Origin: Pegethrix bostrychoides GSE-TBD4-15B
GTDB lineage: Bacteria; Cyanobacteriota; Cyanobacteriia; Elainellales; Elainellaceae
Assembly (NCBI GenBank): GCA_019359155.1
Contig: JAHHHV010000081.1
Span: 1-64,000, forward strand
Direction of reading: 5' to 3'
Length of the DNA stretch: 64,000 nt
The notes beneath the pieces are model-generated. The model saw only the letters and a program-made list of their open reading frames with translations, did not search any database and was not told the origin of the DNA. Below are positions 1,910-3,130 of the stretch, in pieces. Position numbers and translations under genes: made by a program. Positions within the stretch are counted from its first letter, which is position 1. Every line of letters starts with the position of its first letter.

Positions 1910-1966
1910 ATGCAGTCAACTCAACAATACTTCTATTGGTTTTTTACGAAGGTTCACCAGGGGTGA
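1910..1966 (+). CDS. Aromatic-rich leader peptide 1 upstream of DAHP synthase
   Basis: An 18-codon ORF encodes MQSTQQYFYWFFTKVHQG. It has six aromatic codons in a row (Tyr, Phe, Tyr, Trp, Phe, Phe) at 1928-1945. Its TGA stop at 1964-1966 lies inside the large hairpin that begins at 1951. No Shine-Dalgarno site is visible, which is common in cyanobacteria. Its composition, size and place before a terminator and a gene of aromatic synthesis are those of an attenuator leader peptide: ribosome speed over the aromatic codons would report the supply of charged tRNA. The role is inferred by analogy with trpL and pheL of enterobacteria; the sequence itself shows only the ORF and the hairpins. Confidence 0.75.
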   Translation: MQSTQQYFYWFFTKVHQG

Positions 1967-2018
1967 GTCCATTTTGTAATGGAGCCTGGTGAACCGCAGA
2001 TTAACCTCTGCGGTTTTT
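1951..2018 (+). promoter_or_regulatory. Attenuator 1: stable hairpin followed by intrinsic terminator
   Basis: Two structures follow the first leader ORF. The first pairs GGTTCACCAGG (1951-1961) perfectly with CCTGGTGAACC (1985-1995) and has an inner stem TCCATT/AATGGA (1968-1973 with 1978-1983). The leader stop codon lies in the internal loop. The second is a terminator, AACCGCAGA (1992-2000) with TCTGCGGTT (2007-2015) followed by a T-run and a further T-run at 2022-2026. They share 1992-1995, so full formation of one weakens the base of the other, though exclusion is only partial. Expected behaviour: a ribosome at the stop codon melts the first hairpin and favours termination; a ribosome stalled on early aromatic codons leaves it free to form. 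Confidence 0.65.
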
Positions 2019-2081
2019 GCGTTTTTAGCCCAGACTTCTAGCTCCCTCTATTCAGTCCAGTTTCTCTCTATTCAGTCCGCC

Positions 2082-2269: not shown

Positions 2270-3130
2270 ATGCAAAAAGCTCAGCTCGCGCTCAAAGCTC
2301 ATCCCAGCCACAAGAGTCTGGTTCAAGTTTCGGAAACCGTCACTGTCGGCGGCGCAGATTTGCTAATTGTGGCTGGCCCTTGCACCGTCGAATCGCAGGC
2401 GCAGATGGAAGCTGTGGCCAGCCGCATGGCGCTGGCTCCCGTGCAGGCGCTCCGAGGCGGGGTCTATAAGCCTCGGACTTCTCCCTATGATTTCCAGGGA
2501 CTAGGGCTGGAGGGACTAAAAATTCTGGCCGCCGTGCGCGAACGCTCTGGACTACCTGTGATTACGGAAGTCATGGCGATTTCGCAGATTGCCGAAATTG
2601 CGACCTATGCGGATGTGCTGCAAGTCGGTAGCCGCAATATGCAAAACTTCGATCTGCTAAAGGCGCTGGGTAGCGTCAAGCGACCAATTTTGCTAAAGCG
2701 CGGTCTCTCTGCCACACTCGAAGAATTTGTGATGGCGGCCGAATATATCCTCAGTGCTGGCAATTCCAACGTAATCCTCTGCGAGCGCGGCATTCGCAGC
2801 TTTGACTCCTACACCCGCAACGTGCTGGATCTCGGTGCAGTGGTGGCGCTAAAGCAGATTACCCATCTGCCCGTGATTGTCGATCCCAGTCATGCGACTG
2901 GCAAGCGCGAGCTGGTAGCCGATCTCGCGCGCGGAGCAATTGCCTGCGGAGCCGATGGCCTGATTGTCGAATGCCACCCGCAGCCTGAGCAGTCAGTGTC
3001 TGATGCGCGTCAGGCGCTCTCGCTAGAAGCAATGGTAGAACTTGCCGAAAGCCTAGCTCCAATTGCCGCCGCCGTAGGCCGCAGTCTGCCTTCAACAGCC
3101 GGGATAGCGCCCCGGCTTTCGCTTGTTTAG
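2270..3130 (+). CDS. aroF: 3-deoxy-7-phosphoheptulonate (DAHP) synthase, core-only type I-beta
   Basis: The enzyme condenses phosphoenolpyruvate and erythrose 4-phosphate in the first step of the shikimate pathway to Phe, Tyr, Trp and chorismate products. Its 286 residues form one TIM-barrel domain of the DAHP/KDO8P synthase superfamily. GPCTVE (residues 36-41), KPRTSPYDFQG (67-77) and DPSHATGKRE are the substrate and metal-binding motifs; SHATGKR is typical of the I-beta branch. Many I-beta enzymes carry an N-terminal ferredoxin-like or a chorismate-mutase domain for feedback inhibition; this one has only about 30 residues before the barrel and no room for either. AGGA seven bases before the ATG supports the start. 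The two attenuators upstream suggest that control is at transcription. Confidence 0.93.
   Translation: MQKAQLALKAHPSHKSLVQVSETVTVGGADLLIVAGPCTVESQAQMEAVASRMALAPVQALRGGVYKPRTSPYDFQGLGLEGLKILAAVRERSGLPVITEVMAISQIAEIATYADVLQVGSRNMQNFDLLKALGSVKRPILLKRGLSATLEEFVMAAEYILSAGNSNVILCERGIRSFDSYTRNVLDLGAVVALKQITHLPVIVDPSHATGKRELVADLARGAIACGADGLIVECHPQPEQSVSDARQALSLEAMVELAESLAPIAAAVGRSLPSTAGIAPRLSLV

Follow-up and report, generated by a model that had tools for sequence, protein, structure and literature searches.

Upstream of a DAHP synthase gene in Pegethrix bostrychoides GSE-TBD4-15B lie two short open reading frames rich in aromatic codons, each followed by a hairpin that competes with an intrinsic terminator. 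We propose that this arrangement is a ribosome-mediated transcription attenuator which senses scarce charged aromatic tRNAs and does so twice in series on one transcript, and we put the probability of this reading at roughly 88%. The features that carry it can be read from the DNA itself, namely the anatomy of the region, its conservation and covariation, a single conserved promoter and an exclusive link to the gene. All positions given below refer to the first 64,000 nt of contig JAHHHV010000081.1 (henceforth the window), and all features of the attenuator are on the plus strand. At the level of sequence the region has what marks leader-peptide attenuators: a short ORF rich in codons for the pathway product, an intrinsic terminator ahead of the structural gene and an antiterminator that excludes it.

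The gene (2270-3130) encodes a type I-beta DAHP synthase, which catalyses the first step in the synthesis of aromatic amino acids, and consists here of the catalytic core only. Its product scored above the cut-offs of NF006421 and TIGR01361 and matched a 338-position profile from position 68; the closest solved chain was 1vs1, the core enzyme of Aeropyrum pernix, matched from residue 13, while Thermotoga maritima 1rzm was matched only from residue 81. The N-terminal domain missing here carries feedback inhibition in T. maritima. The nearest named matches were DAHP synthases of an uncultured cyanobacterium, Drouetiella hepatica and other filamentous cyanobacteria. The genome holds a second DAHP synthase of the same Pfam family (C6:10668; type I-alpha by sequence), at which no comparable leader was found, and no type II DAHP synthase.

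The first leader peptide, MQSTQQYFYWFFTKVHQG, is encoded at 1910-1966 by an ORF of 18 codons (ATG at 1910, TGA at 1964-1966) that is conserved in homologous loci and matched by our covariance model of leader 1 (R1) with 92.1 bits. Its product, MQSTQQ-YFYWFF-TKVHQG, includes the six consecutive aromatic codons that the initial annotation had placed directly before a hairpin, and reading the sequence bears this out: positions 1928-1945 are TAC TTC TAT TGG TTT TTT (i.e., Tyr-Phe-Tyr-Trp-Phe-Phe). At an aromatic codon frequency of 6.3%, taken from eight genes of the window, the probability of a given six-codon aromatic run is about 6e-8. In the genome (5.7 Mb) there are two copies of the codon pattern TWYTWYTWYTGGTWYTWY; the one outside leader 1 (G000:C78:104649-104666, FYFWYF-type) is an ordinary terminator's T-rich tail, located after an unrelated gene, and that run was not found in 39 relatives. 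Phe codons were TTT in 94% of cases in leader 1, 33% in the adjacent DAHP synthase genes and 75% in the window's other genes, and because of this last value we draw no conclusion from the preference in leader 1.

The ORF, hairpin and terminator were found again in 57 distinct homologous leaders. The hairpin, which we refer to as antiterminator 1 (1951-1995), comprises 11 perfect pairs between arm A (1951-1961) and arm C (1985-1995) and six more in an apical stem (1968-1973/1978-1983), with the leader stop codon in the internal loop as had been described. It is the minimum free energy fold of 1951-2026 (-32.1 kcal/mol, z -4.4), and none of 200 shuffles was as good. Terminator 1 (1991-2026) has the stem 1991-2000/2007-2016 and a U-rich tail. 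Across the 57 sequences, 98.5% of cells were paired in the core of antiterminator 1 and 97.9% in terminator 1, with 11 and 8 two-sided changes, respectively; for antiterminator and terminator alike, the values for cells paired, two-sided cells and covariation were reached by none of 500 shuffles. Most leader 1 pairs never vary, the leader and arms being highly conserved. The counts of pairing and change were made on named structures, since RNAalifold run on the leader 1 alignment picked a local hairpin together with the terminator and thereby hid the antiterminator. That weak local hairpin (A:B; 1951-1957/1963-1969, -3.8 kcal/mol) holds the stop codon in its 3' arm. Its pairing was kept in 95.2% of cells, covariation was absent, and the hairpin may engage arm A once the ribosome leaves.

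Antiterminator 1 and terminator 1 share, as had been noted, only four bases (AACC, 1992-1995), or five if the wobble G1991-U2016 is counted. From this small overlap the initial annotation concluded that mutual exclusion was incomplete and that the switch might rely on timing or stacking. That exclusion is too incomplete to work without them is not supported. The shared bases form the half of the terminator stem that adjoins the U-tract, so that once antiterminator 1 has formed only five of ten terminator pairs are left, at -6.4 instead of -15.0 kcal/mol, and this residual stem is separated from the U-run by GG. The state with antiterminator 1 is also 10.9 kcal/mol better than the apical stem combined with the terminator. 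The terminator is thus far from equally stable with and without the upstream hairpin, and the few natural changes at the shared bases respect both partners: arms A/C/D read U/G/C in two relatives, C/G/U in two and U/A/U in the rest, changes which leave both alternative pairings possible, one of them through a G-U wobble. Such changes are few (4 of 57 sequences), and the rest of the support is the overall conservation of the arms. Given that the terminator is weakened and offset from its U-run while the antiterminator is better by 10.9 kcal/mol, alternative pairing is predicted to suffice for the switch in leader 1; timing or stacking would not be required, although either may still add to the effect. 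What stands of the earlier description is the attenuator itself, with a hairpin competing with the terminator, for which both the energies and the covariation speak, and covariation supports mutual exclusivity in the second leader as well.

We modelled the ribosome by removing the RNA that it would cover and folding what remained, in 62 loci; the footprint was taken to be E. coli-like. The median probability of the antiterminator was 0.79-0.85 for a ribosome placed on the first four aromatic codons of leader 1, and the median probability of the terminator was 0.98-0.99 for one placed anywhere from the last Phe codon to the stop codon. The cusp falls at the Trp codon and shifts by one codon with the assumed footprint; in 56 of the 62 leader 1 loci the distance from this codon to arm A is 11 or 14 nt. 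In this folding model, then, ribosome position decides between the two structures of leader 1. A conserved protector stem of the trp type was sought but not found, the only candidate being the weak stop-codon hairpin A:B, and the untranslated state leans to the antiterminator (0.64 vs. 0.36; 62 loci). In the window itself, a ribosome standing before the aromatic run allows a longer-range fold that favours the terminator, while a fold begun further upstream shows the antiterminator again.

Leader 2 starts about 65 bases beyond the terminator of leader 1 and has its own antiterminator and terminator, after which the DAHP synthase gene follows. Its peptide, MISNSVRCFGSYFFGFYFWLRRCSG, is encoded at 2082-2159 with TGA as stop codon, and the model of leader 2 (R2) matched 2124-2212 with 76.4 bits. 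Antiterminator 2 (2151-2190) has the core 2151-2156/2185-2190, with 26 two-sided cells in 56 sequences; terminator 2 (2185-2212; 16 two-sided cells) consists of the stem 2185-2189/2202-2206, an inner CC/GG with a GCAA loop, and a U-run at 2207-2212. Here the overlap of the two structures takes in essentially all of the arm CCCGG(A). The spacing from the Trp codon to the matching arm is 14 nt at 49 of 54 loci with leader 2. Within the loop of antiterminator 2 (2163-2170 in the window), the leader 2 alignment shows a conserved GUCAUGC-like element. Equilibrium folding of leader 2 favoured the terminator at every ribosome position, least so at the aromatic codons. Since equilibrium folding alone gives no antitermination, the order of synthesis must matter for leader 2 in this model: antiterminator 2, which is complete before the 3' arm of the terminator is made, must act kinetically.

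Both leaders most likely share one transcript. A probable promoter (1840-1869; TTGACT-18-TACAGT, with TG before the -10) precedes leader 1, and of 58 loci 52 had the extended -10 pattern in the 200 nt ahead of leader 1, against 0.1 expected from shuffles. In none of the 53 stretches between leaders, some as short as 21 nt, was it found. A conserved promoter upstream of leader 1 and none between the leaders argues that both terminators are met on the same RNA and that two read-throughs are needed to reach the gene. Elsewhere upstream, overlapping minus-strand open frames at 584-1479 have the appearance of a putative broken transposase gene.

To assess how widely the arrangement is kept, R1, R2 and the protein were searched over 291 genomes of the cyanobacterial class. 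At a cut-off of E <= 1e-100 the enzyme was present in 106 genomes, among which 104 had leader 1, 102 had leader 2, 100 had both and none had neither. Six had a single leader (leader 1 in four genomes of one family, leader 2 in two genomes). Both models matched once per genome, beside the DAHP synthase gene, with the exception of one weak extra R2 match (E 0.005). Five genomes had a leader without a full gene at this cut-off: the gene was split over contigs in two, met a contig end in one (G153), was cut short within the sequence examined in one (G091) and was decayed in one. Locus L171 (G143:C48, about 73800-74200, minus strand), considered as a possible new target, proved to be a decayed copy of the same DAHP synthase gene, to which leader 1 is still attached while terminator 1 and leader 2 are lost. 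A scan upstream of orthologous genes likewise revealed two leaders in nearly every cyanobacterial locus. The consensus forms are M..YFYFWF.(K/E)VH(R/L)x for leader 1 and M...SWFFGFYFWxRxxSG for leader 2. Only the aromatic codons, the pair of arms and the terminator are conserved; F, Y and W make up 94.9% of leader 1 residues (372 cells) and 96.7% of leader 2 residues in the aromatic runs, and they interchange, the behaviour expected if charged tRNA is sensed and not if the peptide is fixed.

Short aromatic ORFs also precede type I-beta enzymes outside the cyanobacteria, at acidobacterial loci (L041, L048, L051, L053, L056, L062, L066, L071, L080 and others) and at Photobacterium loci L045, L047 and L050. 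There the leader ORFs (e.g., 'SFRFWFWY' or 'CAFFSWWW') are followed by a terminator in a single unit, whose acidobacterial core is CCCACTC...GAGTGGGTTTTTT, and the R1 model does not match these non-cyanobacterial leaders. The idea that leaders occur only with core-only enzymes fails outside the cyanobacteria, as acidobacterial DAHP synthase frames that extend further upstream also have them.

In the mechanism that we propose, stalling, termination, the response to starvation and the effect of the series are inferred from these features. A shortage of Tyr-, Phe- or Trp-tRNA would make the ribosome stall in the aromatic run and leave arm A free; arm A would then pair with arm C, so that the stem of terminator 1 loses its U-tract side. 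With terminator 1 disrupted, RNA polymerase would proceed to leader 2 (2082-2212), where the same logic would apply. When aromatic amino acids are plentiful, the ribosome would instead reach the stop codon and cover arm A, the terminator would form and transcription would end. The DAHP synthase gene would thus be transcribed only after both checkpoints had been passed.

Alternatively, the leader peptides might respond not to charged tRNA but to the free aromatic amino acids, through arrest of the nascent chain of the kind that tryptophan elicits in TnaC. Both leaders contain the series F-Y-F-W, and TGA is the stop codon of leader 1 in 53 of 56 sequences vs. 18 of 56 for leader 2 (Fisher p 1.7e-12), as it is in TnaC-type systems. 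We nevertheless consider arrest improbable, as each position of the run can hold F, Y or W, and a ribosome arrested at or near the stop codon would sit on arm A and promote termination under plenty, which is the effect that the ordinary mechanism has already. The TGA bias could also be accounted for by the local hairpin A:B, and at locus L009 the leader stops one codon sooner, at a TAG, but retains the GTGA element, which speaks for pairing. An RNA switch in which a bound protein or small molecule selects the hairpin (riboswitch- or TRAP-like), with the ORFs being secondary, is marginally less probable again: an antiterminator and a terminator alone would fit any such switch, but no Rfam covariance model matched at the gathering score or even at E up to 1, no aptamer-like core is conserved, and the conserved coding frame would not be needed. 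That the terminators are mere boundaries against upstream transcription and the ORFs by-products of T-rich sequence, as the genome's second aromatic run exactly is, we regard as very unlikely, because the aromatic codons are placed ahead of the terminators and not in their tails, the conserved promoter sits between the upstream minus-strand tRNA and leader 1, and leaders conserved as peptides, with their alternative pairings, occur in every enzyme genome.

Attenuation by charged tRNA thus remains our preferred reading, and the reason for doubling it can be suggested tentatively. Two attenuators for the same amino acids would multiply their read-through, so that a DAHP synthase without an allosteric domain would be expressed with little leak and would respond steeply. 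On this somewhat speculative account, a large part of the cyanobacteria has retained such a gate, and other phyla, Acidobacteria among them, came to control the enzyme by leader peptides, perhaps independently. The lineages with one unit and those with two offer a natural comparison of what the second serial attenuator contributes. The system would also imply that ribosome and RNA polymerase are coupled in cyanobacteria closely enough for attenuation, and may serve as a handle on the production of aromatic compounds in cyanobacterial engineering.

Leader-peptide attenuators are well known from the proteobacterial trp and pheA operons (Rfam Trp_leader and Phe_leader). The leaders described here resemble them in having a short peptide rich in end-product codons and an antiterminator opposed to a terminator, ahead of a pathway gene; they differ in that neither an Rfam match nor a strong protector stem was found, in covering all three aromatic amino acids, in forming two serial units and in being cyanobacterial. 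In cyanobacteria, which are without Rho (PMC13289151), reliable data on attenuation were described as lacking in 2016 (PMC4833913), and we found no report of leader-peptide attenuation in the open-licence literature, a search that may miss reports in subscription journals. The Acholeplasma motif uORFC-13-1, a predicted Phe-coding uORF with a terminator before aroF (PMC8632094), is likewise a prediction and likewise precedes a DAHP synthase gene, but it has one unit, another structure and belongs to another lineage. A published tandem case is that of the attenuators of Salmonella mgtCBR, in which two leader ORFs with attenuators also lie on one leader RNA and respond to ATP and proline, and which their authors called a singular example (PMC3641672). 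Whereas the mgtCBR units answer to different signals, those reported here carry the same kind of codons and would, judging from the sequences, make up a broadly conserved tandem variant of the leader-peptide attenuator in cyanobacteria.
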